Shown: in pieces, positions 496 through 47,654 of the stretch
Layout: each line of letters starts with the position of its first letter
Numbering within the stretch: position 1 is the first letter of the stretch
Source of the DNA: Armatimonadia bacterium
GTDB lineage: Bacteria > Armatimonadota > Zipacnadia > Zipacnadales > JABUFB01
Length of the DNA stretch: 64,000 nt
Assembly: GCA_039679385.1 (NCBI GenBank)
Contig: JBDKVB010000097.1
Span: forward strand, 1-64,000
Direction: 5' to 3'
Notes under the pieces: model-generated
What the model was told of the DNA's origin: nothing
What the model saw: the letters and a program-made list of their open reading frames with translations, nothing else
The model's database searches: none
Translations under genes and position numbers: made by a program

Positions 496-525
496 TTTCC
501 TCCCGTTACCCGATCGTGCTATACT
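496..525 (+). promoter_or_regulatory. candidate promoter for the ABC transporter cluster
   Basis: A TATACT -10 hexamer at 520-525 follows a weak -35 (TTTCCT, 496-501) with an 18-nt spacer, about 50 nt before the TTG start at 579. The -10 is good and the -35 poor. Confidence 0.4.
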
Positions 526-578
526 ACGTTTTCGGTGTCTTGCTCGATTCCCCGCTAAGCTCCAGGAGGCGTTGCGTC

Positions 579-3551
579 TTGCGCCGTTCGACACTTGCCG
601 CTGCGTTGGCGCTTACCGCCTGCCTTGCCCTTCTGTGCACGGGTCAGGCGGCCGCCAAGAAGATCGTCCTGCGCGTCCAGTTTCTCCCCACGCGTGACCT
701 CGCGGTCACTCCCGACCAGAAGGCCATTCTCGCCATTGCCGACGCCTTCCGTGAGAAGCACCCCAACGTCGAGCTTCTTCCCTTTGAGGGTCTTGTCATC
801 CAGGGCGTAGGCGCGATGGACTCCGGTCCACTCATGGCTATGGCCGGCGGTGTTGCGCCCGAGGTTCTGTACGTCAACTTCCGCCAGTCGGAGACCTACA
901 TCTCCCAGAAGTTCCTCTACCCGCTCGACAAGTACGTAGAGAAGTGGCAGCAGGAAGAGGACATCAGCAAGCTCATTCCTCCCCAGGTCTGGCAGGTCAT
1001 CAAGCGGAAGGGCCCCGACAATCAGGAGCACGTCTGGTCGATCCCCTACGGCGTGGTCGTCATGGCCCTTCAGTACCGCAAGGACCTCTTCAAGAAGGCC
1101 GGCCTCGATCCCAACAAGCCGCCCCAGAACTGGGATGAGATGTACGACTTCGCTCTCCGCATGACCGATCCCGAGCGCGGCGTCTATGGACTTGGGCTGG
1201 CCACCAAGGGCAGTGCCGCCTGGAACTTCATGAGCTTCCTGTGGTCGGCGGGAAGTGATGCCGTCGTTCAGGACAAGCAGGGAAACTGGCGCGCCGCCTA
1301 TGATGACGACGGCGCGGTCAAGGCCATCCAGTTCTACTGGAAGCTGCGACGCGGGAAGTGGACCCGCTGCCCCAACGACGGCGAGCCGGTTCCCTTCGAG
1401 ATCGGGCAGACCGAGGCTCAGTGCAAGAAGTGCCACCGGACCTTCACCATCGATGAACTCAAGAAGGAAAAGCGCCTCTATGAGGGCTGTGTCGACGGCG
1501 ACCCGGCCAGCAGTCTCGGCTGGCAGCGTGGCAAGATCGGCATGATGTTCCAGTACCTGCGCGACGAGTACATCGCCCAGGTCAACCCGTCCCAGGTAGG
1601 TCTCGCCCCCATTCCTAAGGGCCCCGGCGGCGAGAGCCATGGTGAGATCAATGCCACCATGTACGGCATCAACTCCACCATCACCGACCCCGAGGTCCGC
1701 GACGCCGCCTGGGAGTACATCAAGTTCTACGCCTCCACCGAGGCTAAGCGCATCAAGACCAAGATCTTCATCGACTCCGGGTTCGCCAAGTACGTCAACC
1801 CGCAGTGGCTGACCGAGTTCGGCTACAACGACTACCTGCGCGAGGTACCCAAGGGCTGGGCCGACGTATTCCAGACCACCGTTGCCAACGCACGGCCCGA
1901 ACCTTACGGTAAGAACTGCCAGCTCATCTACATCGAGATGACCGTGCCCATCGAGCGGGCGCTGCAGGTCGATGATCCCAGCGCTGACCAGATCCGGACA
2001 ATCCTCAAGGAGGAAGTGGCTAACACCAACGCCAAGCTCCTTGGCCGGATCCCGCCCAACATACAGCGGATGCGCACGATCATCACGTTCTTCGTCGTCT
2101 TGTTCATGGCGATCGCCTTCATCACCCTCATGCGCAAGAGCCTGTCGCACTACTCGGTGCAGATCCAGTCTCAAAGCTCGGGGGCAAAGACGGAGACGGT
2201 CGGCTACAAGCGCCGACGGAACATCTATGCATGGATGCTGCTGCTGCCGGCGCTGGTGCTCATCGGCATATGGCAGTACTACCCCCTGGCTCGCGGCTCG
2301 ATCATGGCCTTCCAAGACTACCGCATCATCGCAGGCACAGCCTTCGTGGGGCTTCAGAACTTCTCCGAGGCGATCTTCTCGAAGGACTTCTGGCTCACGA
2401 TGTACCGGACGCTGTGGTATGCCTTCATGATGCTGTCCCTGGGCTTCTGCGCTCCGATTGCCCTGGCTGTGCTGCTACATGAGGTGCCGCGGCTCAAGGT
2501 CTTCTACCGCACCCTCTACTACCTGCCGGCGGTCACTACCGGGTTGGTCATCTACATGCTCTGGAAGCAGTTCTATGACCCCAGCCCGCACGGCTTCCTC
2601 AACAGCATCTACGGGCCGGCCAGCGAGATCGCGCGTGAGCTTTTGGTCTTGTTGGTCGCAGGGCTTGGGGCTGGTCTGGCTACCAGCTTCTGGAACAACC
2701 GCGACCGTGAGCCGGAGAAGCTAGCCTGGTGGATGTGGCCTATCTACGGGATCGTTCCACTGTGGTTCTACCGGCGGGCAGAGGGGGAACGGGCCACCCG
2801 CCTCTGGCGGTTCGCGAATCTCGCAGCCATGGTCGTCTGGTCGGCGATCGCCGTATACGCGGTCGTGCAGGGCGTCCGTATCACGGGCGTCTGGGTGCTG
2901 TTCCTGGCCGCTCTGGCCGCAGCAGGCGCTGTCCTGGCCTTCACGAACCCCTCACCTTCGCCGCTGAAGTATGTTGTCGGTCTGATCTCCTGCGCGGCGA
3001 CGGTTCTGGTCGTCACCTATGGCGTGCAGCACGTGTGGCCCGAGCTGTTCCGAGCCGACACTCAGCAGTTCCTGGATGACGCGAACCCGGTCTTCGGCAT
3101 CCCCATCTTCCCGGCGATCGCTATGGTGTGCATTATCTTGCCGCAGATCTGGGCCTCCGTTGGCCCGGGCTGCATCATCTACCTGGCCGCCATGAGAGCC
3201 ATTCCGGAAGAGATGTACGAGGCCGCCGATCTTGACGGCGCCGGCTTCTGGACCAAGTTCTGGACCATCACGGTGCCCTTCCTGCGGGCCCTGATCATCA
3301 TCAACTTCGTGGGCGCCTTCATCGGAGCCTTCCGCGCCTTTGAGCCCATCTTCATCATGACTTCCGGTGGCCCGGCGAACGCCACCACCGTTCTCGGGCT
3401 CGAGATCTGGCGCAACGCTTACATGTACCTCAAGTACGGGTTTGCCGTCTCCATGGCATGGATACTCGGTTCGCTGCTCATCGGGTTCACCGTCATGCAG
3501 TTGCGCATCCTGTCGCGGCTGGAGTTCCGCACCGCCAGCGCCAAGGACTAG
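579..3551 (+). CDS. ABC sugar importer: substrate-binding protein fused to a MalF-type permease
   Basis: The 990-residue start is TTG 579, 9 nt after AGGAGG (564-569), giving a signal peptide (MRRSTLAAALALTACLALL). Residues ~25-490 are a family-1 extracellular solute-binding domain. A single membrane helix (~498-520) links it to a MalF-like permease whose EAA loop (EEMYEAADLDGAG) lies near residue 877. Two oddities are visible. The binding domain carries an inserted Cys cluster (C264, C282, C285, C304; CPND...CKKCH) resembling a degenerate zinc ribbon. Residues ~685-825 add four or five extra hydrophobic segments inside the permease. Fusion of binding protein to permease tethers the receptor to its translocator. 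The partner permease is the next gene; no ATPase is encoded nearby. The substrate is unknown, but sugars or oligosaccharides are likely from family and context. Confidence 0.9.
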   Translation: MRRSTLAAALALTACLALLCTGQAAAKKIVLRVQFLPTRDLAVTPDQKAILAIADAFREKHPNVELLPFEGLVIQGVGAMDSGPLMAMAGGVAPEVLYVNFRQSETYISQKFLYPLDKYVEKWQQEEDISKLIPPQVWQVIKRKGPDNQEHVWSIPYGVVVMALQYRKDLFKKAGLDPNKPPQNWDEMYDFALRMTDPERGVYGLGLATKGSAAWNFMSFLWSAGSDAVVQDKQGNWRAAYDDDGAVKAIQFYWKLRRGKWTRCPNDGEPVPFEIGQTEAQCKKCHRTFTIDELKKEKRLYEGCVDGDPASSLGWQRGKIGMMFQYLRDEYIAQVNPSQVGLAPIPKGPGGESHGEINATMYGINSTITDPEVRDAAWEYIKFYASTEAKRIKTKIFIDSGFAKYVNPQWLTEFGYNDYLREVPKGWADVFQTTVANARPEPYGKNCQLIYIEMTVPIERALQVDDPSADQIRTILKEEVANTNAKLLGRIPPNIQRMRTIITFFVVLFMAIAFITLMRKSLSHYSVQIQSQSSGAKTETVGYKRRRNIYAWMLLLPALVLIGIWQYYPLARGSIMAFQDYRIIAGTAFVGLQNFSEAIFSKDFWLTMYRTLWYAFMMLSLGFCAPIALAVLLHEVPRLKVFYRTLYYLPAVTTGLVIYMLWKQFYDPSPHGFLNSIYGPASEIARELLVLLVAGLGAGLATSFWNNRDREPEKLAWWMWPIYGIVPLWFYRRAEGERATRLWRFANLAAMVVWSAIAVYAVVQGVRITGVWVLFLAALAAAGAVLAFTNPSPSPLKYVVGLISCAATVLVVTYGVQHVWPELFRADTQQFLDDANPVFGIPIFPAIAMVCIILPQIWASVGPGCIIYLAAMRAIPEEMYEAADLDGAGFWTKFWTITVPFLRALIIINFVGAFIGAFRAFEPIFIMTSGGPANATTVLGLEIWRNAYMYLKYGFAVSMAWILGSLLIGFTVMQLRILSRLEFRTASAKD

Positions 3552-3620: not shown

Positions 3621-5519
3621 ATGCCTCACATCGCCGTAGTGGGTCGCCGCGCGCCCAAAACCCGCCTGCTGATCGCAGCTATCTACCTGACCCTGAGCCT
3701 GGGCGCAGTCACCATGGTCGTGCCCTTCTGGCTCATGGTCAGTAGCTCCTTTACCAGTAACGTAGACTCCAACGACTTCCGCCTGGTGCCCGCCTACTGG
3801 TACAGCGATGAGGCGCTCTACAAGAAGTTCATGGAGAGCGCCTTCAACGAGGACTCCACCCTCTACAATTACGCCACCGGCGAGGACATCGGCGACTTCC
3901 TGGACGTGAAGCGCCCGGCGACGGTGAACCAGAAGCAGGTCGAGGACTATACGCAGTGGCTCGACTCGTTGCCCCTCACCTATACCTTCACGGCCCACGC
4001 CTACTCGATCGCCAAGCCCAAGATCAGCCTCGACGGCGCGCGCCGCTACCAGGAGTTCCTGTCCAAACGGTACAACGGCGACGTCCTCAAGCTGAACGCC
4101 GCCTACCGCGAGGACCGCGAGTACTTCGACTTGCAGTTGCGGCGCGAGGAATGGCACAAGCGCGTCTTCCAACCCCTCAAGGACCTGCGCTACACCGAGC
4201 AGATGGAGTTCAAGAAGACGCTTCCGTCACGGTTCCGCGTCCCTGCGCCGGTCGAGGGCATGTTCCAGGAGTTCCTGACCAATCAGGACCTCGGCCCCGG
4301 CCAGCCGACCAACGAGCCCAAGACCTACGCGAAGCGCTACCAGCTGCCCATCAAGTCCATCGCCGACCTTCGGCTGCCCGAGCGAATGCCGAAGCAGACC
4401 AACTTCGCCACGGACTGGCTCAAGTATGTACGAACCGACGTGCCGTACCAGTTCGTCGTGTTCGAACCCGGCGCCCAGCCCTCCTTCACCGAGTGGCTGA
4501 AGAAGCGCTACAGCAACGACCTCAAGTTCCTGCACAAGGTCTATGGGACCGCCGGGAAGGCCGTCAACAACTGGACGGACGTGACGCTGAGTCCGCACTA
4601 CCCCTGGGATGGCATCCCGGCTGCTGACTGGGCCGCTTTCCTCGAGGACGAGAAGGGCGCGCCCGCCCAGTTCATCCATCTCGAGACGCCGCAGATCCTG
4701 TATCGCAACTGGCTCCGTGACCACTACCACACAGTCGCAGCCGTGAACGCGGCCTACCAGACGAAGCTCACGAGCTTCGACGTCGCTGAGCCCCCGATGA
4801 AGGAAGCCCAGTGGAGCGCTATGCAGGCAGATCGCAGTGCGATCAAGCGCGACTTCGTGACGCGCAACTATCGCGACGTCATCGCCTACATCTCCGTGCA
4901 CGGCAGGGCGCTGCGGAATACCTTCATCCTGGTCGTGTGCGTCCTGGCGCTCACGCTCACCATCAACCCACTCTCGGCCTACGCCTTGAGCCGCTACAAT
5001 CTGCCGCAGACCTACAAGATCCTGCTGTTCTTCCTCGCGACCATGGCCTTCCCGGCTGAGGTCACGGCCATCCCGAACTTCTTGCTCATGAAGCACTTGC
5101 ACTTGCTCAACACCTTCTACGCCCTGATCTTGCCCAGCGCGGCCAATGGCTACTCGATCTTCCTGCTGAAGGGCTTCTTCGACGGTCTGCCACGCGATCT
5201 GTACGAGGCGGCCGAACTCGACGGGGCTTCCGAGGTGCAGATGTTCACGAGGATCTGCCTGCCGATGTCGACCCCGGTACTGGCGGTCATCGGTCTTGGC
5301 GCCTTCACCGCAGCCTACGGGTCCTTCATGTGGGCCTTCGTTGTCTGCCAGGACAAGAACATGTGGACCCTCATGGTCTGGTTGCAGCAGATGGGCAGTT
5401 GGGCTCCACAGAGCATGATCTACGCAGCGCTGGTGCTCGCAGCCATCCCAACGCTGTTAGTGTTCATCTTTGCCCAGGACATCATCATGCGCGGTGTCAT
5501 CATTCCGATGGAGAAGTAG
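3621..5519 (+). CDS. ABC sugar importer permease (MalG type) with ~390-residue extracellular insert
   Basis: This 632-residue protein starts at ATG 3621 behind GGGGAGG (3604-3610). A first helix (~residues 16-42) is followed by ~390 hydrophilic residues. The canonical MalG-type permease core then begins near residue 430, with EAA motif DLYEAAELDGAS. Usual family length is 270-300 residues. The insert contains at least three related units, near residues 143 (YQEFLSKRYNGD..LNAAY), 289 (FTEWLKKRYSND..HKVYG) and 361 (YRNWLRDHYHTV..NAAYQ). They resemble the F..WL..RYG....LN.A.GT motif found in GH42-type glycosidases. By topology the insert should face the periplasm, so it may capture glycans or contact the fused binding protein encoded just upstream. 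Confidence 0.9.
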   Translation: MPHIAVVGRRAPKTRLLIAAIYLTLSLGAVTMVVPFWLMVSSSFTSNVDSNDFRLVPAYWYSDEALYKKFMESAFNEDSTLYNYATGEDIGDFLDVKRPATVNQKQVEDYTQWLDSLPLTYTFTAHAYSIAKPKISLDGARRYQEFLSKRYNGDVLKLNAAYREDREYFDLQLRREEWHKRVFQPLKDLRYTEQMEFKKTLPSRFRVPAPVEGMFQEFLTNQDLGPGQPTNEPKTYAKRYQLPIKSIADLRLPERMPKQTNFATDWLKYVRTDVPYQFVVFEPGAQPSFTEWLKKRYSNDLKFLHKVYGTAGKAVNNWTDVTLSPHYPWDGIPAADWAAFLEDEKGAPAQFIHLETPQILYRNWLRDHYHTVAAVNAAYQTKLTSFDVAEPPMKEAQWSAMQADRSAIKRDFVTRNYRDVIAYISVHGRALRNTFILVVCVLALTLTINPLSAYALSRYNLPQTYKILLFFLATMAFPAEVTAIPNFLLMKHLHLLNTFYALILPSAANGYSIFLLKGFFDGLPRDLYEAAELDGASEVQMFTRICLPMSTPVLAVIGLGAFTAAYGSFMWAFVVCQDKNMWTLMVWLQQMGSWAPQSMIYAALVLAAIPTLLVFIFAQDIIMRGVIIPMEK

Positions 5520-36050: not shown

Positions 36051-39000
36051 TTAGCCCGTGATCGCTTCGGCGGCGGCCTCCATCATCTCGGCGATCCAGA
36101 CCTCCGGTTCGCGCGCGGCTGCTTTCCGCAGGGCCGGTGCGGCACTGGGATGACCGTCCTGGCGCAGAACCTGGGCAGCAGCGGCTCTGACGTCGGCGGA
36201 GTCATGCTGCAGCAGGCCCACGATGCCCTGCCGCAAGGCGCCAGTCATCAGCGCGGGTGCGACGGAAGCGGCAACCATGCGGACGTTGGTGTCGCTGTCG
36301 GCCAGCGCGTCGACGAGGACCAGGGCGTCCTCGCCGGTAGCCAGGCGACGCAAGGCACCGACGGAGGCGACCCTGACCTTGGGAGCCGGGTCCTGCAGGC
36401 CGGCCAGGACAGCCTCACGGCCCCTCGGATCACCAATGCGTCCCAGAGCTCGGAAGGCGTCTGAACGGGCGTCTGGTGCGTCCTGGCGCGCCAGGAGCAC
36501 CAGGGTATCCACGGCCTGCGGTCCGAGCTGTCCCAGGGCCCAGCAGGCTGCATAGCGACGTTCCGGATCTCCGGACAGGGCGTCCTCGGAGAGTGCCTCC
36601 ATCGCAGAATCACCGAACAGAGGCAGGGACTCGATCGCTGCGTTGCAGACGCCTTCGTCCTCGTCTCGGAGCATCCCGAGGAGCAGCTTAAGGGCCTGCG
36701 GATCGCGCGGCACTTCACGCAGAGCGCAGGCAACAGCGGTTCTCACCTGCGGATCGGGATGGTGAATGTACGGGTACAGCATCGGGATCTCGTCGGCCGA
36801 AAGGTGACGGAAGGCCCGGGTGACGGCCTCACGAACCCGCTCGCTGGAGTCGTCGATCAGCGACACCAGGGCGAGGGCAACCGTTCCGCCAAGGTCGGCG
36901 AGAGCCTCGGCGGCCTGCCCGCGGGTATCGTCATCGGGCGAGTGCAGGGCCGTCTCGAGGCTGGTCAGGCCGTCTGGATGCCCCAGGCGTGCGAGTCCTG
37001 CAGCGGCCGACACCTGGACCAACTCGTCGCTCTCTCTGTGCATGGCCTCGCGCAAGGCCGAGACAGCCCGTGGCGAGGTGCTGCGTCCCAGGGCAGTGCA
37101 GACGAGGGCCTTGAGTGCGGTGTCATTGCTGGAGTTCAGTTGCTGCACCAGCAGTTCGGCGCCGCCCTGCTCGATAGTTGCCAGTACGTCGGCGGCGGCT
37201 CGTCGCACGTCAGGCTCCGGATCGCCCAGGAGTGCGGCCAAGGGTCGAACGGCCTCGGCGCCCATGCGTCCGAGGGCCACCGCTGCGGCTTTGCGCACGG
37301 CCACATCCGGGTCGCGTGCTTTGCGGACGAGGGCACGCAGCGACTGGCTGTCGCCGATGTCGCCGAGGATGACTGCCGCAGCCCGGCGCACGGGTTCATC
37401 CGGATCCGCGAGGAGCTCGTCGACGATTCCGGGAGCGCTCCGAGCAAGGTCGGTGGCGACGGAGGCATAGTCCGGGTCCGGCGGCGCCTCAGGACGTGCG
37501 GCCAGTCGTACCAAGATCGGGATGGCCAGGGACGGGTGCCCCCGCAGAAGCTCAAGGATGACCTGCGCCAACTCCAGGCGCGGGGTGATGGCGGTCTCGG
37601 CCAAGACCTTGATAGCACGCTCGGTCCCGATCTCGCTGAGAGCGATGGCTGCCTCGCGGTTGATCGCCAGCGAGGTGTCCTGGAGCCGCTGCTGAAGGGT
37701 CGGAACCGCCTCTTCCCTACCGTACCGACCGGCCATCTTCACCGCGGCAAAGCGCATCTTCTCGTCGGCGTCGCGAGCGCGCTCCATCAGGCTGTAGATC
37801 GGGTCGACCGTCATCGCTCGCAGGGCCAGCAGTACCGCTGTGGACACCCGCGGATCGGGATCAGTCAGGCGATCAAGAACCGGGGCAACCGCTGGACCTC
37901 CGAGGGCTCCGAGGGCACTCGCGACTGCACACTGGACCTCGTCGTCGGGATCACTGAGGCGCTTTGCGAGGGGATCAATGACGGCGTGCGAGTCGAGCAC
38001 CGCAAGTACCCTGGCGGCCGCGACGCGCATTGCGGGCAACTCGCTGTTCAGCCGGCCCACCAGCGCGGTCTCTGCCGGACGTCCCAGACGACGCAGGGCG
38101 GTAGTCGCCTGCTGGACGACCAGCGGGTCCTCCGAGGTCAGCAGGTCCGTCAGCGGGAGAGCGACTGCCGGTCCCATCACGGGAAGTGCGTACTCGAGGG
38201 CCTCGCGGATCGCCGGACTGGTAGCGCCGACACAACGAACGATGGGCGTTGCTGCACGGGCGTCACCGAGGTCTGCGAGTGCATGGATCGACTCGGCGAC
38301 GACGCCGGTGTCCTTGTCCTCGAGCAGATCGATGAGGTCGGGAACCAGCGAGACGTCACCGACGCGGGCGACACCACGAGCGGCCAAGGTCCGCACCGCC
38401 GGATTTGAGTGACCGAGAGCGCGACGCAGCACAGGAGCCGCCACCATACCCATGCGGCCCAGGACCTCAGCACCCACGTTGCGCAGCCGCTCGTCGTTGT
38501 TCTCCAGGAGTGCGACGACCTCGGATAGCGCAGCCTCGCGCAGATCGGCCAGAGCTGCGACCAGGGCTTCGCCACCGTCCGGTGCCACTGACTGCCGAAG
38601 GGAGGCGACCAGCACCGGAACTGCTACTCGACCGATGGCCCGTACGCCTTGACTGGCCTCAGCGCGAACGGCTGCGAGGGGATCATAGAGTGCAGCCACC
38701 AGCCGCTGGGCTGCCTTCTCACCACCGATGATCGTCAAAGCCCGCAGGGCCGCCACGGTCACATCGGTCTGCTGACCGTTGCTCGCGCGAAGGAGGGGCT
38801 CTACGGCAGCCTCACCGATGCCGGCGAGAGCGAAGACAACGTCATCGCGAACCGTTCCATCGGGGGTCAGGATGCGACTGACGAGACCATCGACGGCCGG
38901 CTCACCAATGCGTGCGAAGGCTGCGACGGCGGCCTTCGATACCCGGCTGTCCGGGTCCTCAAGAGCGCCGACCAGGTGAGCGATGGCACTGACGGCACCG

Positions 39001-42000
39001 AGCAGACCAAGTGAACCGGCGGCCTCCGCACGGACCTCGGCTGCGGCATCCTTGAGGCGGACGACCAGGTGTGCGATTGCTCGCTCATCACCAAGGCTCC
39101 CAAGCAACCGGGCGGCACCGGCTCTGGCCCCGACCTCCGAAGAGCGGAGGATCGGCAGGACATCGTCGAAGATGTCGCGCTCAAACCGGCCCAGAAGGTC
39201 GGCGGCGGACAGGGCGCCGGGAAGCTTGCCGGCACGCAGGACATCGAGAGCGCTCCCGGCAACCGAGGGGCCGATCTGCTGCAGGGAGTCGACGGCCACC
39301 TGGCGGACAGGTTCGGCTGGATCGTCGAGGAGGCCGAGGAAGTCCCCGGTCGCCTCGGCGCCGGCCACGGAGAAGAGGGCTCTCGCAGCGGCAGTTCGAA
39401 CGGCAACAGAGTCGCGGGTCAGGCACTCGCGCAGTACCGGCGCGGCAGCGTCGCCGGCCACGGCCATGGCGCGGACGATGCGCTCATCCAGTTCGCCGTT
39501 CTCGCGCACGAGTCTCGGCACCAGGACCTCGTAGGCGACGTCGCCCAGGGCCCCCATAGCCTCGACAGCAGCATCGAAGACAGCCTCCTGCGAGTCACCC
39601 AGGGCCTCCACCAGGGCTTCAGCAGCCTGTCGATTGCCGAAGCGAGCCAGGGCAGTGCAGGCAGCGCAGCGGACGGCAACGTCATCGTCGACGAGGCAGG
39701 CCTCCACAGTGCCCTGATCCGAAGGTCGAAGAGCATAGGAGAGGGTCTGCAGGGCAGCGAGTCGCGCCTCCACGTTCCCGTCGGAGAGGAGATGGGCCAC
39801 CAGGTCGAGGACTTCGTCGCCCTGAACGGACAGGGCCCGCGCGTAGTACTCACGGAGCACCGGGTCCGTGGTGGCGAAGTGGTCCAGCAGAGGCCGGGCA
39901 CCCGCTGTTCCGTAGGCCCGGAGTGCCCGTGCAGCCGCCATGCGGACCTGCTCATCCGAGTCGAGGACCGTCGCGGCCAGAGGCGCAAGGGCATCCTCGG
40001 GCTTCATGCGCTCCAGCACCCGAGCTGCCAGGGCTCGTCGCGTCGGAGTCTCGTCGGAGAGCATGCCCAGGATGACACCGTGGGACACGTCTTCCAGGCG
40101 AGCCAGACACTCATGGAGAGCTGCAACCTGCGCGTACTGCGGGTCCTCCAGGCGCTCCAGGAGCAGAGGAACCGACGCAGCGCCAAAGCTGCAGATGGCA
40201 TCGACCCGCGCACCCCGCGCCACCGTGTCTTCGTCGGAGATACCCTTGATGAGCTGAGGGAGCGCCTCGAGATAGCGGAAGCGCTGCACGGCACCGGCGG
40301 CAGCGGCACGGACAGCGGCTTCAGGGTCTGTGAGGTGAGCTGTGACCTGCGGCGCAACGGCAGCGTCGCCGATGTCGGTCAGGGCGCGGATCGCCTCGAC
40401 ACGGGCCTCCACAGGACTGCCCGGGATGCCCTGCACCAGCGCAGAGACGGCGGCCAGGCCAATCCGCGCGAGAGTAGCGCCAGCGGCACTGCAGGCAGGT
40501 GCAACTCCCTTGAGGAGAACCGCATGCACTTGTGCAACGGCGTTAGCACCGAACTCGGCCAGAGCCTCCTCGGCTGCCGCCCGGACTGCCATCGCGGAAA
40601 CGCCGAGACAACCGGCCAGGGGCGCCATAGAGGCCGGCTGCTTGACCCGCATCAGGACTTCGATCGTGCGCGTGCGGACCGCGACGTCGTCGCGCTCGAG
40701 GTACGAGTGCAAGGCAGCGAGAGCCGGCTCGCCCAGGGCTGTCAGTGCGGTCAGGAGCACCTCGTCCTCGGGGCCGGTCTCCTCGACGAGGATGGTCGCC
40801 AGGGCCTCGCCACCGACTTCGCCGAGGGCCCTGAGGCCCTCGACCGCTCTGTCAGTGACCTTTGGTTCGGGGTCGCGGAGAGCCTGCACCAACATCGCAG
40901 CGCAGTCCGGAGTCTGCCACTCGGCAAGGGCATCACAGACCGCGAGCCGCACCGCAACCGACGGGTCCTGCAACAGGGTGCTGAGTACCGGGAGGTCACC
41001 GGGACGCTGCGACAAGGCCACAACCTCGGCGATGCCGAGGCGCCCGCTGACGTGCGCAGTCTCGCAGGCCCTGACAGCGGCATCGACGCCGGCGTCGCCG
41101 ATTTCCACGAGTGCCCGGGAGACCCGCTGCCGACGCACGACGTCCGGCTCCTCGAGGCACTGAGCGGCTGCTTCGGCTCCCCTTTGGCCTGCGACCGAAA
41201 GGGTGACCAGAGCGGCCTCGCGGACCTGGGCATCCTCATCAGCAAGCAGCGGCGCGACACACATCGCGTGTGCGGAAGTGTCCAGCAGCCCGAGGGCCTT
41301 CACCGCCATCCAGCGCAAATGGTGCTCCTCAGAGCTGAGCATCTCCACACACTGCTGGGCTGCGGGCTCGTCCAGACGGCGCAGGATTGCGACGACCTGG
41401 CGCTCACTTGACCAGCCGTGGTGGTCCAGATCCTCGAGGACGTTCGCAACGGCCAGAGCACCGAAGCCCACGACGACCTCAGCCTTGGCCTCGCGGACCT
41501 CGGGCACCTCGCTGTCGAGGTTCTGGAGTAGCGTGCCGATCGCCGGTGCATAGCGGAACCGCTGTAGGGCTCGCGCCGCTGCGATCCGGACGCCATCGAC
41601 CGGATCTGACAGGTAGTCGAGGATCTCCGGCGCGGGCAGCGGGTCGCCGATCTCACACAGGGTCTCGATGACCCGGCGTCTGGCGGTCGCATCGGCTGCA
41701 GGCAGCATCTCCGTCAAGGGATCGACGGCGGCCTGACCGAAGGCAAGGAGGGTCTGCTGGACAAGGTCGATGCTGTTGGCCTCGCCGCGCTGGAGGTGCT
41801 GCAGCAGGTATGGCAAAGAGGCTTCGCCAATCCGCAGAAGCGCTCCTGCGCCAGCCTCACGGACCTGCGCGACGTCATCAGAAAGCAACTCGGCAAGGAC
41901 TGGAGCGTCGTCGCCGGCCCCCAGGTGCCCAAGAGCCCGTGCTGCGGCCACTCGGAACTGCGGCTCGGAGGAGGTCAGGCATCCGCGCACGAGCGACATG

Positions 42001-45000
42001 CCAGTGGCTTCAGGCAACTCGAGAACCCGGGCGACGCGGGCATCCAGTTCGTCGGACTCGGTGACCAGGCGCTGCACGATGAGCGGATGGGCCACAGCGC
42101 CAAGGCCGTGTAGAGCGGAGACGACCGCCTCGTATACTCTCTCGTCGGGGTCGGCGAGGGCGTCCAGCAGCACGACGGCCACCTCGGCCGAGCGGTAGCG
42201 TGACAAGGCCCAGGTGGCAGCGACGCGGACCTGTGGCACCTCGTCGCGAAGCCTTGCCGTGAGAGGGGCGAAGTCTGCGTCACGGCGAACGCGTCCCAGG
42301 GCGAGGATGACCCCGGCGCGCATGGCTGGGTCGGTGTCGTCAAGGTGCTCGGCGGCGATGTCCAGGAACTCCTCGGACTGTGCAGCCACGGCTGCCATGT
42401 ACAGCTTGGCCACATCATGATCCGGGTGCCTGAGGCCGTCGAGGAGCGGGACTGATAGGTGCGACGGAAGGGCTGCCAGTGCCAGGGCGGCTGCAGCACG
42501 CACCTCGGAGCTCTCGTCAACGACCAGGGCCAGAAGCTGCGGCGCAGCACGCTCCACCTTCATGTCTAGCAGCGTACGTGTCGCGAGAAGACGGCGCTCG
42601 GGACGCTTGTCGCCCAGCAGCTCCAGGATGGCCTCTTCGACGATGTCACCAAGAGTCGCCAGCGCCCGTGCCAGAGCCGGTGAGCTGGCCCAGCCCGGGT
42701 CCTCCATGCGCTCCAGGAGGAGGGGAACGGCCACTTCGCCGAAGCTGCAGATAGCCTGCAGTCGGGCATCACGCGAGGGCTCGGTGTCGCCGTCGATGCC
42801 GTCGAGGAGATCGGGAATCGCGGCTTCGTCATGGATGGTCCTGAGTGCGTTCGCCGCCGCAACGCGCATGCGCTCGTCGTTGTTGCGCAGCCACCCGACG
42901 AAGTGCGAGGCGCAGCCAATCGGGTTGATCCGCGCAATCACATCGATGGCGGCGTCACGACGTTCAACGGTCCGGTCTTCCGCAGCAGCCAGCAGTGGCG
43001 GGACGGCGCAGTCACCAAGTCGCTCCAGACAGTCACCGGCAGGAGTGACGAGGGCCTCGTCTCCCGTGGTCAAGGCAGACACCAGGGCGGCGACGGCGTT
43101 TGCCCCAGCTCGTACGAGAGCGTCGGCCGCTGCCTGCTGGACAGTCAGTTCCGGATCCGCGAGCAGAGAGGCCACCTGCGGGAAGGTGTCGGTATGGCCC
43201 AGGGCACACAGGCAGCTCACTGCTCCGGCACGACGCAGCGCCGTGGGTGAGGCGAGTGCGGTGAGCAGTGCCTGTGCTGCAACGTCGTCGAAGATGCTCA
43301 GCGCGCGGATGACCTGTGCGGGTGGCGCGACGAGGTTGGGCTCGAAGGCATCCAGGATCGCCTGGACTGCCAGGATGCCGTGATCGGCCAGAGCCTCGAT
43401 GGCCGCCTCGCAGACCGTGCGGTCTTCGTCGTTGACCAGCGGAGCGGCAGTGGCGAGGTCGCCCATTCGCACTAGGATCTGGACCGCCAGGGCGCGTACC
43501 TGCGCCTCTGGATCGGTCGCGGCGATGGAGACGGCGAGGCGCGCAGTAGCGCCCCCGAGGGCTTCCAGACCTCGCAGGGCAGCCATACGCCCAGCCATCG
43601 GGGAGTCCACCGCGGCATTCGCGAGAGTCTGGAGCGCGGGCTCGCCAACGGACACCATCAGATCGACGGCGGCGTCTCGCAGGCTTGCCTCCTGGGAAGC
43701 CAGCTTCTCACCCAGGAGCGGCAGCGCGAGATCCACATGGTCAGTGAGGTAGTCGCGGGCGGCCTCTCCCAGGTCTCCGGAGATCGCGATCAGATCGACC
43801 ACGAGCGGCACGCCGTCGCTGACCTGCATGCTCTGCAGGACCCGGATCGCCATGGCTCGGCGAGTGTCCGGCGCCTCAGTGAGGACGTCAAGGATCGCCG
43901 GCAAGGCGAGGTCTGTCATCCGCCCCAGGGAGGTGACAACGGATTCCCGCAGCACCGGGTTCGGATCATCCAGATGCTCGAGAAGGATCGGGATGGCTTC
44001 GTCGCCGAAGCTGACGATGGTGTCCTGGGCCGGAACGCGGACGCTATCATCACGTTCGGCCATGACCTGAACCAGGGGCTCGAGACACGTTGCGGAACCA
44101 ACCTGGGCCAGCGCCGTGATGGCTCGGACCCGGAAGGGGCTGTTGAAGTCGAGTAGGAGCTCGACGAGAGGCTGTACCGACATCTCGCCCAGCAAGGCGA
44201 AACACTCACGGCCCAGCTCCTCGGCGGGAGCACTGTCGCCCAGGAACCCTCGAAGGACGTGAGGCAAGGCCTCCCGACCGAAGCGTCGGACGGCGGACCG
44301 CACGGATCCGCGCACCTCGTCGTCGAGGTCGCCCATCAGGCCGGGCAGCAGGTCAAGCAAGTCCTGGTGCTCAAGCGCTACCAGGCAGTTGATCGCCCCG
44401 GCTCGCACGTGAGCCGACTGCGAACGTGCCAGGTCCATCAGCCCGGCGGCGGCAGCATCCCCCATCGCGCGAAGTGTTAGCGTGACGATCGGCTCGGGAA
44501 GTCGACTGCGCAGGCTGTAGTAGTCGATCAGCGCGGTGAGCGCGTCGCGTCCATGAACCAGGAGCGAGTTGGCTGCGGCACTCCGCACCTCGGCGTCCGT
44601 GTCTGCAATGAGGCGGCACAGGGCGGATAGACCGTCCGCGGTCCGCACCAGCCCAAGCGCGCTCGCGGCATGGACCCGCACCACTCCCGCTTCGTCACGA
44701 GTGGCCTCAACGATCGGCTCGCGTGCGATCCCTGCCCCTGACAGGGCGAGGGCGTCCAGGGCAGCGACCCTGGCGACCTCCTCACCGGTGCTCAAGACTT
44801 CCACGAGGGCCTGCAGTCCAGTCGGACCAAGGGCGACACAGATGTCCGCCGCGATCCTCCGGAGCTCAGAGCGCTCGGCACGCAGCTTCTCAACTAGTGC
44901 GGGGAGAGAGAGAGCGGGCAGTTGGAGAGCGAACTCCCGTGCGGCCTCTCCCACAGGCGCCGGTGTGTCAAGCAGCTCGAGAACCGGAGCGGCCGCCTCA

Positions 45001-47654
45001 GGTGCGGCAATCCTCTGCAAGGCCTGAACCGCGGCTGCCTGCCGTGGCGGCGTGTCGTGCGAGAGGATCTGCACCAGGGCTGGAGTGGCGGCTGCCGGGA
45101 TCGTGGCCAGGGCAGCAGCGACTGCTTCGCCCAGTCCCGCGACGGTCGTCTCCAGATGGTTCAGGAGAGCGTTGAGGGCACGGTCGCCCAGATGCGCCAC
45201 AGCGTCGCTGGCCAGGGCAGCAACCCGTGAGTCTGCGTCAGCCATGGCGAGAACGATGGGCTCCAGCGCTTCAACGGTGCCCAGGTCAACCAGGGCACGA
45301 AGGACTGCGAGACGAACCCGGCTGTCTTCGTCGGCAGCGGCCCGAGTGAGAGCCCCAAGAGAGGCCTCGTGTCGCATCTCACCCAGGGTCCGTGCAGCGG
45401 CGGCACGTGCCAGTGGTTCGCGGTCGACGAGCGCGCCCTCGACCACAGCAACAGCCGGTTCACCGAGGCGCGCCAACACATGACCAGCGTCCTCACGGAC
45501 GCGGTCACGGCGGTCGGCCAGAAGCTCCGCGACGGGCGACACCGCGTCAGACCCGAACTCCACCAGCCGCTCAGCGGCAGCCTCGACGACCTCGCGGTCT
45601 TCATCACGCAGGCACCCGACGATGGGTGGAACGGACTGCGAAGGTGGGAAGAAGCGCAACCCACGCAAGCCGACCAGCCGCTCGCTGACCTCCGGGGCGC
45701 CCAGGGCGTCGAGCAGTGCAACTCGCGCGTTCTCGCCGAAGGTCACCAGGGCCCTGGCGGCAGCCTCCTGTAGCTGAAGGCTGGCGTCGGCCAGGCAGTG
45801 CATGAGCGCCGGAACGGCATCGCGGTGCCCAAGGCTGGTCAGAGTATCGGCGGCCGCTTCGCGAACTCGCGGGCTTTCATCAATGAGAAGAGCGCCGACC
45901 GCGTCGACTGCGCCAGTGTAGCCCAGAGAGGCGATCGCTGACAGCGCCGCAATCCGCACCTCGGACTCTGGGTCGCCCAGGCAAGTTGCCAACGCCTTGC
46001 CCGCGCGTCTGTCGGCGAGTGCAGTCAGGGCCTCGATCGCAGCCAGTCGTAGCACGGACGCCTCTGCCGTCAGCGTTCTCTCCAGGGCATCGAAGGCCTC
46101 GCCCGAGGAGATGCGACCAAGGAGGCGGATCGCCACGAGCTGCAGCTCAACGTCCGGCGCGGCCAGCAGGCTTGCTACAGCGCCGGCAGCAGGCGCGCCG
46201 ATCTCACAGAGGCACTCCTCGGCGACCAGCTTCAGCTCGCTGTCGGGGTACGAAAGGCCGACAACCAGATAGCGGATGGCACGTTGCCCGGCGGTCGCTC
46301 GCAGCAGATGTGCCGCGGTTACCCGCTGGGCGGTAGTCGGCGAGTGATGCCCCTGCCAGATCTCGACGGCCAGCGCAGCGGCCTGCTTGCGGAAGGTCTC
46401 CAGTTCTTCATCCTCAGAATCGGCCACGACAAGCTGCAGGACCCGGAGGGCCGTCTCGGGATCGTCAGCCTGCGCGGCCTGCCCGGCCTCGATCAGTTGT
46501 GCCTGGAGACGCCGTCGCAGAACCAGAACGCTTGTCGGGATACCACGCCTTCGTGAGCGCGCCAGGGCCGACCGCAGCTCAGGCCACTGGAACCGGAGAT
46601 GAGGTGGGTCGCCCTGGGGCACGAGATCGAGGACCGGCGCGCCCTGACGCAACTGCAGGAGCTGCTCCGCGAACTCCTCCGGCGTCGCGACAGCGTTCTC
46701 AATCTGCAGGCGCCGCTCGAGATCGGAGAGGTGGATGTAGCCGCCTGCAGGCCAGTCAACCAGTGCGGAGAGCAAAGCGTTGCAGCGAGGCAAGGCAAGG
46801 CCCTCGAGCTCATCGGCGATGGTGCGGGTACCCAGGGCCTCCCACTCCACCGGTCCGATCTCCGACAGACCAGCCGCCTCCGCCCGTGAGGCAATGCTGC
46901 GCATCGCTGCCCGCAGGACGTGGAGGTTGCCACGTGCCCGGGCTGCGGCAACCGGCCGCACCGTCGGCGAGAAGGGAAGCCCAGTCGCCGAGTCCGAACC
47001 CAGGACGAGCTCGATCAGCTTGTCGACCGGCTCCCCCACCGGGAAGTGGAGCAGTCCACTACGAGCCAGACCCTCCAACCTGGAGGACTGGAAACCGGAG
47101 CGCAACTCCACGAGGGTCAGGCAGTTGCGGAGCTGCCGTCGTCCCTGCTCGAGGAGGGTTGAGACGTAACCGAAGACGTCGAGGCTAGCGGGTGCGTCGA
47201 GATGTGCGTTTAGCCCTGAGAAGGCCAGCACTGTCGCGACTTGGCCCGCCTGGGCCTGCAAGTCGACTGCGGCGAGAAGTTGCGGCAGCAGCTCAGGATC
47301 GGCCGAGGGCTTGACTGCATCGGTGAGCGTCAACTGGGGATGGAGCTCAATCAGGCGCTGCGAGACGCGCCCGGCAAGACCTGCGGGAGTGAAGTAACGG
47401 TCGACGTGGACATGCAGGGCGATGTGTCCGGCGGCCCTGGCTTCGTCGATGAGCGCACCAAGTAGCCAGCTCTTGCCGCGCCCCGGTGGACCAACGACGA
47501 TCGCCGTCTGCGCCGTACCGGAAGAGGCTGCCGCGAGCAACCGGATGAACTGCTCGCTTTCGGCCGGCCAGTACTGGGCGGCGCCACTTGCCGCGGACTT
47601 CTCGGAGACCGAGGCGGCTTCGTTGCCTAGATTGAGGATGTCGGATTCTGCCAT
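36051..47654 (-). CDS. giant 3,867-residue P-loop NTPase-HEAT-repeat protein
   Basis: One uninterrupted 11.6 kb frame. Residues 1-45 form a leader. VVGPPGRGKSWLL (53-65) is a clear Walker A; the candidate Walker B strand TVLAFSGLN (141-149) lacks an acidic residue. Residues ~290-360 look like a winged-helix segment and ~370-440 are helical. From about residue 455 to the end there are ~110 HEAT/PBS-lyase-type repeats of ~30 residues (P.L...L.D....VR.AA..AL..IG). No signal peptide or membrane segment is present. The plan (NTPase switch plus very long repeat sensor) recalls STAND-type NTPases, but no effector domain was recognised. The protein may be a solenoid scaffold or sensor. Start ATG 47654 lacks a clear ribosome site. 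It is flanked by housekeeping genes, not defence genes. Confidence 0.93.
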   Translation of the reverse strand: MAESDILNLGNEAASVSEKSAASGAAQYWPAESEQFIRLLAAASSGTAQTAIVVGPPGRGKSWLLGALIDEARAAGHIALHVHVDRYFTPAGLAGRVSQRLIELHPQLTLTDAVKPSADPELLPQLLAAVDLQAQAGQVATVLAFSGLNAHLDAPASLDVFGYVSTLLEQGRRQLRNCLTLVELRSGFQSSRLEGLARSGLLHFPVGEPVDKLIELVLGSDSATGLPFSPTVRPVAAARARGNLHVLRAAMRSIASRAEAAGLSEIGPVEWEALGTRTIADELEGLALPRCNALLSALVDWPAGGYIHLSDLERRLQIENAVATPEEFAEQLLQLRQGAPVLDLVPQGDPPHLRFQWPELRSALARSRRRGIPTSVLVLRRRLQAQLIEAGQAAQADDPETALRVLQLVVADSEDEELETFRKQAAALAVEIWQGHHSPTTAQRVTAAHLLRATAGQRAIRYLVVGLSYPDSELKLVAEECLCEIGAPAAGAVASLLAAPDVELQLVAIRLLGRISSGEAFDALERTLTAEASVLRLAAIEALTALADRRAGKALATCLGDPESEVRIAALSAIASLGYTGAVDAVGALLIDESPRVREAAADTLTSLGHRDAVPALMHCLADASLQLQEAAARALVTFGENARVALLDALGAPEVSERLVGLRGLRFFPPSQSVPPIVGCLRDEDREVVEAAAERLVEFGSDAVSPVAELLADRRDRVREDAGHVLARLGEPAVAVVEGALVDREPLARAAAARTLGEMRHEASLGALTRAAADEDSRVRLAVLRALVDLGTVEALEPIVLAMADADSRVAALASDAVAHLGDRALNALLNHLETTVAGLGEAVAAALATIPAAATPALVQILSHDTPPRQAAAVQALQRIAAPEAAAPVLELLDTPAPVGEAAREFALQLPALSLPALVEKLRAERSELRRIAADICVALGPTGLQALVEVLSTGEEVARVAALDALALSGAGIAREPIVEATRDEAGVVRVHAASALGLVRTADGLSALCRLIADTDAEVRSAAANSLLVHGRDALTALIDYYSLRSRLPEPIVTLTLRAMGDAAAAGLMDLARSQSAHVRAGAINCLVALEHQDLLDLLPGLMGDLDDEVRGSVRSAVRRFGREALPHVLRGFLGDSAPAEELGRECFALLGEMSVQPLVELLLDFNSPFRVRAITALAQVGSATCLEPLVQVMAERDDSVRVPAQDTIVSFGDEAIPILLEHLDDPNPVLRESVVTSLGRMTDLALPAILDVLTEAPDTRRAMAIRVLQSMQVSDGVPLVVDLIAISGDLGEAARDYLTDHVDLALPLLGEKLASQEASLRDAAVDLMVSVGEPALQTLANAAVDSPMAGRMAALRGLEALGGATARLAVSIAATDPEAQVRALAVQILVRMGDLATAAPLVNDEDRTVCEAAIEALADHGILAVQAILDAFEPNLVAPPAQVIRALSIFDDVAAQALLTALASPTALRRAGAVSCLCALGHTDTFPQVASLLADPELTVQQAAADALVRAGANAVAALVSALTTGDEALVTPAGDCLERLGDCAVPPLLAAAEDRTVERRDAAIDVIARINPIGCASHFVGWLRNNDERMRVAAANALRTIHDEAAIPDLLDGIDGDTEPSRDARLQAICSFGEVAVPLLLERMEDPGWASSPALARALATLGDIVEEAILELLGDKRPERRLLATRTLLDMKVERAAPQLLALVVDESSEVRAAAALALAALPSHLSVPLLDGLRHPDHDVAKLYMAAVAAQSEEFLDIAAEHLDDTDPAMRAGVILALGRVRRDADFAPLTARLRDEVPQVRVAATWALSRYRSAEVAVVLLDALADPDERVYEAVVSALHGLGAVAHPLIVQRLVTESDELDARVARVLELPEATGMSLVRGCLTSSEPQFRVAAARALGHLGAGDDAPVLAELLSDDVAQVREAGAGALLRIGEASLPYLLQHLQRGEANSIDLVQQTLLAFGQAAVDPLTEMLPAADATARRRVIETLCEIGDPLPAPEILDYLSDPVDGVRIAAARALQRFRYAPAIGTLLQNLDSEVPEVREAKAEVVVGFGALAVANVLEDLDHHGWSSERQVVAILRRLDEPAAQQCVEMLSSEEHHLRWMAVKALGLLDTSAHAMCVAPLLADEDAQVREAALVTLSVAGQRGAEAAAQCLEEPDVVRRQRVSRALVEIGDAGVDAAVRACETAHVSGRLGIAEVVALSQRPGDLPVLSTLLQDPSVAVRLAVCDALAEWQTPDCAAMLVQALRDPEPKVTDRAVEGLRALGEVGGEALATILVEETGPEDEVLLTALTALGEPALAALHSYLERDDVAVRTRTIEVLMRVKQPASMAPLAGCLGVSAMAVRAAAEEALAEFGANAVAQVHAVLLKGVAPACSAAGATLARIGLAAVSALVQGIPGSPVEARVEAIRALTDIGDAAVAPQVTAHLTDPEAAVRAAAAGAVQRFRYLEALPQLIKGISDEDTVARGARVDAICSFGAASVPLLLERLEDPQYAQVAALHECLARLEDVSHGVILGMLSDETPTRRALAARVLERMKPEDALAPLAATVLDSDEQVRMAAARALRAYGTAGARPLLDHFATTDPVLREYYARALSVQGDEVLDLVAHLLSDGNVEARLAALQTLSYALRPSDQGTVEACLVDDDVAVRCAACTALARFGNRQAAEALVEALGDSQEAVFDAAVEAMGALGDVAYEVLVPRLVRENGELDERIVRAMAVAGDAAAPVLRECLTRDSVAVRTAAARALFSVAGAEATGDFLGLLDDPAEPVRQVAVDSLQQIGPSVAGSALDVLRAGKLPGALSAADLLGRFERDIFDDVLPILRSSEVGARAGAARLLGSLGDERAIAHLVVRLKDAAAEVRAEAAGSLGLLGAVSAIAHLVGALEDPDSRVSKAAVAAFARIGEPAVDGLVSRILTPDGTVRDDVVFALAGIGEAAVEPLLRASNGQQTDVTVAALRALTIIGGEKAAQRLVAALYDPLAAVRAEASQGVRAIGRVAVPVLVASLRQSVAPDGGEALVAALADLREAALSEVVALLENNDERLRNVGAEVLGRMGMVAAPVLRRALGHSNPAVRTLAARGVARVGDVSLVPDLIDLLEDKDTGVVAESIHALADLGDARAATPIVRCVGATSPAIREALEYALPVMGPAVALPLTDLLTSEDPLVVQQATTALRRLGRPAETALVGRLNSELPAMRVAAARVLAVLDSHAVIDPLAKRLSDPDDEVQCAVASALGALGGPAVAPVLDRLTDPDPRVSTAVLLALRAMTVDPIYSLMERARDADEKMRFAAVKMAGRYGREEAVPTLQQRLQDTSLAINREAAIALSEIGTERAIKVLAETAITPRLELAQVILELLRGHPSLAIPILVRLAARPEAPPDPDYASVATDLARSAPGIVDELLADPDEPVRRAAAVILGDIGDSQSLRALVRKARDPDVAVRKAAAVALGRMGAEAVRPLAALLGDPEPDVRRAAADVLATIEQGGAELLVQQLNSSNDTALKALVCTALGRSTSPRAVSALREAMHRESDELVQVSAAAGLARLGHPDGLTSLETALHSPDDDTRGQAAEALADLGGTVALALVSLIDDSSERVREAVTRAFRHLSADEIPMLYPYIHHPDPQVRTAVACALREVPRDPQALKLLLGMLRDEDEGVCNAAIESLPLFGDSAMEALSEDALSGDPERRYAACWALGQLGPQAVDTLVLLARQDAPDARSDAFRALGRIGDPRGREAVLAGLQDPAPKVRVASVGALRRLATGEDALVLVDALADSDTNVRMVAASVAPALMTGALRQGIVGLLQHDSADVRAAAAQVLRQDGHPSAAPALRKAAAREPEVWIAEMMEAAAEAITG
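37629..45191 (-). repeat. higher-order super-repeat of ~426 codons inside the giant gene
   Basis: The equivalent residue of one recognisable HEAT unit (xFGxxAVxxLLxxLxD) falls at 45189, 44007, 42741, 41463, 40185, 38907 and 37629. Spacings are 394, 422, 426, 426, 426 and 426 codons. The units at 42741 and 40185 share AICSFG..SVPLLLER-like sequence (AICSFGEVAVPLLLERMED and AICSFGAASVPLLLERLED). About 14 HEAT repeats make one block. Positions were counted by eye. Confidence 0.75.

Follow-up and report, generated by a model that had tools for sequence, protein, structure and literature searches.

In a 64,000-nucleotide window from an Armatimonadia bacterium (the window being the whole stretch of DNA that was analysed), a MalG/UgpE-type permease carries five tandem repeats in its first extracytoplasmic loop. 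The repeats are homologous to a segment of the catalytic barrel of GH42-type glycosidases, and the gene occurs in near-strict pairing with a gene for a receptor-permease fusion. The permease and the fusion probably constitute a type I carbohydrate-type ABC importer, with a sugar as the likely cargo. The features discussed are as follows.

516–3551, + strand: fusion of a solute-binding protein (residues ~46–530), a membrane anchor, and a MalF/UgpA-type permease (~571–1011), assigned from SBP_bac_1, UgpA, UgpB, and the family alignment.
3621–5519, + strand: MalG/UgpE-type permease bearing the loop, 632 aa, assigned from BPD_transp_1, the UgpE/MalG NCBIfam models, and MalG chains in Foldseek.
3747–4895, + strand: extracytoplasmic insert between TM1 and TM2 (residues ~43–425), absent from paralogues and predicted to fold alone.
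3804–4004, + strand: repeat 1 (residues 62–128), from the unit HMM, the unit profile in the same genome, and hhalign to the other units (96.7–97.9%).
4032–4256, + strand: repeat 2 (residues 138–212), from hhalign, the unit HMM, and the unit profile in the same genome.
4248–4469, + strand: repeat 3 (residues 210–283), degenerate here, from hhalign, the unit HMM, and the unit profile in the same genome.
4470–4688, + strand: repeat 4 (residues 284–356), from hhalign, the unit HMM, the unit profile in the same genome, and superposition on GH42 residues ~163–235.
4686–4889, + strand: repeat 5 (residues 356–423), the most enzyme-like, from the unit HMM, the unit profile in the same genome, and the tree; it holds the PF02449 match of the protein.

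The C-terminal third of the protein is an ordinary MalG/UgpE-type permease. Residues 467–626 match BPD_transp_1 with 48.1 bits (curated cut-off 26.4), the closest NCBIfam models are UgpE and MalG, and the best Foldseek matches to the whole-permease fold are MalG chains. The EAA coupling motif of the cytoplasmic loop, LYEAAELDGASEVQMF (residues ~527–542), is near-invariant in 30 relatives. The open reading frame starts 69 bases after that of the fusion, on the same strand, and a ribosome-binding-like site, GGGGAGGA, is located upstream of it. The Arg/Lys-rich N-terminus, as expected of a cytoplasmic end, is followed by TM1 at about residues 12–41 and then by ~380 extra residues before the next membrane helix. 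The enlarged loop corresponds to P1 of MalG, which is extracytoplasmic in the normal MalG topology. A big extracellular loop had been claimed in the first-pass annotation of this DNA, and it is indeed present between TM1 and TM2, at residues ~43–425. Four MalG-type paralogues from the same genome lack the insert. Members of the MalG/CUT1 family typically have a short TM1–TM2 loop in a subunit of ~280–300 aa, which is not the case here; the long loop is a departure inside the family, and membership is retained.

The insert contains five units of ~70 aa with the consensus EAEALYRKFLEKKYNGDIEALNKAYGTDYASFEDVRLPAREPANGRRAADWLEFVRKELPLRFVRTGFAY (30 aligned sequences). The ten unit-against-unit profile–profile pairings have probabilities of 96.7–99.2% and E-values of 3e-10 to 3e-19, whereas column-shuffled controls, 20 per unit pair, reach a maximum of 26%. 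As judged from these sequence profiles, the five units are homologous to each other, which both upholds and exceeds the at least three homologous units proposed earlier; the motif sites given at residues 143, 289, and 361 belong to repeats 2, 4, and 5. Repeats 1 and 3 are degenerate in the window protein and have strayed from the consensus. When the unit profile was run over the same genome, five units were found in the permease frame and single copies only elsewhere, with no second such array among the other proteins. In the loci examined there are 25 segments of glycosidase type, none of them in a frame with another copy. Among the matches listed for the whole permease in Foldseek there were transporter folds only, and the insert was therefore predicted and searched by itself. 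AlphaFold2 predicted the structure of the insert alone with a pLDDT of 89 and a pTM of 0.88, and that of the full permease with a pLDDT of 84; in both models, successive units are predicted to follow a helix-strand-helix-helix order. In the unit tree, units from the same position of the array cluster together irrespective of genus (U1 28/28, U4 26/30, U2 24/30, U3 24/30, and U5 16/29), and thus the common ancestor of the sampled family already had the array. The copy number varies between lineages, from about two detected units in forms of 505–567 aa to five or six elsewhere.

The repeats are related to a sub-barrel piece of glycosidases. PF02449 (GH42) matches the window protein with 26.8 bits against a gathering score of 21, at profile positions 135–193 of 376; it matches all 25 family inserts, the best at 2e-21, and ten of them match GH14 as well. 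The 33 best matches of the unit profile in the PDB are all glycosidases (GH42, GH14, GH50, and related barrels), with E-values from 1.1e-9 for GH42 to 0.015, and are followed by unrelated chains from 0.06. Together with the shuffled columns, this rules out a likeness of the motif by chance. Repeat 4 could be superposed on residues 163–235 of Gan42B (2.8 Å over 68 residues, Z 7.0) and on a Bacteroides GH42 carrageenase (1.9 Å over 61 residues, Z 6.7), and the Foldseek matches of the predicted insert, at E >1, belong nearly all to families already known from the sequence; values of Z <8 or Foldseek E >1 are weak alone, and they gain weight from agreement with the sequence result. On the basis of sequence and local structure, the glycosidase likeness of the repeats is homology.

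The segment matched by the repeats is located in the middle of the barrel, at PF02449 positions ~135–212 of 376, just past the catalytic acid of strand 4. The GH42 kinship of the motif had been recognised in the first-pass annotation, but its placement near the N-terminus of GH42 enzymes was not correct. In BiBga42A, the acid/base is Glu-160 and the nucleophile is Glu-318, and Trp-200 and Phe-221, positioned on helix tips in the region of the segment, build the substrate site of the neighbouring subunit (PMC10688820). The matched segment starts after Glu-160 and stops long before Glu-318, and therefore contains neither of the two glutamates. The equivalent of Trp-200 is unit position 30 (according to the unit/PDB alignment; the numbering is offset by four from BlGal42A), and a tryptophan is found there in none of the 147 permease units examined. 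A complete (beta/alpha)8 catalytic barrel was not found in the insert, the model of which is a helix repeat array with short strands; the partial PF02449 coverage and this model exclude an entire glycosidase within the loop.

The permease units lack the five-residue WSxxx insertion of canonical GH42, and so do several non-canonical glycosidases of the same genome, L057 and L061 among them. The glycosidases of this genome have one copy of the segment each, and 20 of 25 are nearest to permease unit 5. There are thirty PF02449 matches in the genome, most of them partial, in frames of 600–1500 aa, which form a large group of divergent GH42-like enzymes. Several of these frames have an AWGTxYxSF-type signature and no canonical WSxxx insertion.

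The fusion partner matches SBP_bac_1 (2e-25), UgpA (8e-23), and UgpB (9e-12); the UgpA/UgpB/UgpE likeness of the importer is well under the curated cut-offs. Within the solute-binding domain, residues ~286–320 (1371–1475) form a Cys-rich insert that resembles a zinc ribbon (CP..., followed by CKKC), which is odd for an extracytoplasmic receptor. The insert has a fuller set of four cysteines in L009, L011, and L080, and is longer in L091 and L112. In the MalF-type half, residues ~700–850 (2613–3065) include ~130 additional, mainly hydrophobic residues, which are shared with the close relative L011 and missing in nearly all other aligned fusions.

The distribution of the two genes was surveyed in 291 Armatimonadota genomes and, outside the phylum, in one record and its group of 14 genomes. 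The long loop is present in 138 of the 291 genomes and the fusion, counted as full-length-grade at E <1e-100, in 143. Both occur in 129 genomes and neither in 139, and the 23 discordant genomes comprise nine with the loop alone and 14 with the fusion alone. The claim that the loop is linked to the receptor fusion next door is upheld by these counts. When 13 "fusion only" genomes were searched again with a family profile, a long permease, whole or as a fragment, was recovered in ten; the remaining three are incomplete assemblies, as are most of the nine "loop only" genomes. The nominal Fisher value for the pairing, 5e-54, overstates the evidence because the genomes are related by descent. It is more telling that the pairing is kept where the genes are far apart: among the loop/fusion pairs listed, 19 of 54 are unlinked or on different contigs, with distances of 59–846 kb where unlinked. 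The same 19 pairs refute adjacency of the two genes as a universal rule.

A record titled Omnitrophota (L012:1488–6285) has both the fusion and the long permease; just one genome in its group of 14 has the pair, which may reflect transfer or mis-binning. In several lineages, among them L084, L090, and L113, the long permease is on its own next to genes that by eye are thiL-, tsaB/tsaE- or murI-like; such housekeeping-like neighbours hint that the cargo may be general and not specialised. A plasmid search with the insert gave no match, and a literature search, the coverage of which included few subscription journals, returned no account of such a permease.

We consider it somewhat more probable than not that the arm is a non-catalytic docking scaffold for the tethered receptor, within a two-subunit importer that shares a MalK-type ATPase. 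One permease carries the fused receptor, tethered in the membrane, and the other has the five-repeat arm in extracytoplasmic loop one. The ancestor of every repeat is the strand-4/helix-4 excursion in a barrel of GH42/GH14-like type, the piece by which GH42 enzymes enter the neighbouring subunit. The arm would keep the tethered receptor in place and oriented above the channel, and would replace the contacts of MalE in E. coli, which are made with MalF P2 and MalG P1 according to Daus et al. 2007, as cited in PMC3150292 (ref. 89). The complex would be driven by a shared MalK-type ATPase encoded elsewhere. Each of the seven genomes tested has a single match to the MalK OB domain, which in G184 is only partial, and the MalK-type match of the window's own genome is located on a different contig, C138, in keeping with an ATPase common to several importers. 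The reach of the GH42 segment to the neighbouring subunit and the co-occurrence with the receptor point to protein docking. However, joint inheritance for unrelated reasons would give the same co-occurrence, and the varying number of units indicates that the geometry need not be fixed. The long permeases that several lineages have away from carbohydrate genes argue against a docking importer for sugars.

The anatomy can be compared with that of known systems. The importer shares with the E. coli MalFGK2-MalE and UgpABCE type the MalG-type fold with its EAA motif, and the MalF/UgpA-type partner and SBP_bac_1 receptor. However, the first loop of E. coli MalG lacks the five-repeat array, and E. 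coli MalE is free in the periplasm and not fused to MalF. With the GH42 beta-galactosidases (BiBga42A, Gan42B, and A4 beta-gal), the permease has in common the ~70-aa post-strand-4 segment, in both sequence and local structure, but it contains this segment alone, in five tandem copies, without the full barrel, the acid/base, the nucleophile, and the sugar-contacting tryptophan. GH14 beta-amylases and GH50 agarases have this segment too, without the five-residue WSxxx insertion, like the permease repeats, but in a single copy within the catalytic barrel. A permease-tethered receptor is also found in OpuA of Lactococcus lactis, a glycine-betaine importer (PMC11065425); unlike in OpuA, the receptor from the window is joined to a subunit of the MalF/UgpA type, which has as its partner a MalG with a repeat arm. 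The whole system is still a type I ABC importer.

Alternatively, the arm may capture glycans, with the repeats binding poly- or oligosaccharides and passing them to the tethered receptor, which we regard as unlikely. The enzyme ancestry of the repeats, evident from PF02449 in the inserts and from the PDB matches of the unit profile, is consistent with such a role, as are the many PF02449 proteins of the genome, the aromatic positions conserved in every repeat, and the sulfatase, GHL10, and beta-helix genes close by in the window. However, the conserved aromatics are at helix positions and look structural, and several other lineages have the gene amid non-carbohydrate genes. The sugar-contacting tryptophan of the GH42 segment is absent throughout the 147 units, although one lost tryptophan leaves room for other sugar contacts. 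At E <= 1, the window protein matches no carbohydrate-binding family of Pfam, and at E <= 0.01 none of 25 relatives does. The earlier suggestion that the repeats are glycan-binding modules is not borne out, given the lack of such a family, the partial barrel, and the missing Trp-200 equivalent.

An arm that serves as an envelope spacer or scaffold, tying the importer to peptidoglycan, an outer-membrane porin, or an enzyme and not to its own receptor, is rather improbable. Repeat arrays of variable copy number are typical of scaffolds, and this array differs between lineages, but the near one-to-one pairing with the receptor fusion, unlinked genes included, indicates the receptor as the partner. 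A functionless, degenerate glycosidase remnant inside the permease would agree with the divergence of repeats 1 and 3, but is very improbable given the open frames kept in about half of the 291 genomes, the confidently predicted fold of the insert, and the grouping of units by position across genera, which marks an ancient, maintained array.

Elsewhere in the window, on the − strand, positions 36051–47654 contain one open reading frame of 3867 aa, a possible giant NTPase of the STAND type. Most of it consists of HEAT repeats, with HEAT_2 matched in 40 stretches, and residues 32–138 weakly match the AAA_16 ATPase family.

The origin of the arm would probably surprise a specialist, as would its near-strict pairing with the fusion. 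A piece of an enzyme smaller than a barrel can be excised, duplicated, and redeployed as a repeat array with a different job, and a "Glyco_hydro_42" label on such permeases does not denote an enzyme. The importer points to a sugar-type design in which external parts have grown on both permeases, and the strict pairing opens receptor coupling in such importers to testing. We give slightly less than an even chance to the broader interpretation, in which the glycosidase-barrel arm, amplified to a five-repeat array on the permease, and the permanently tethered receptor form a previously undescribed capture-and-delivery importer in about half of the sampled Armatimonadota, where the arm may act as a receptor clamp or a glycan guide.
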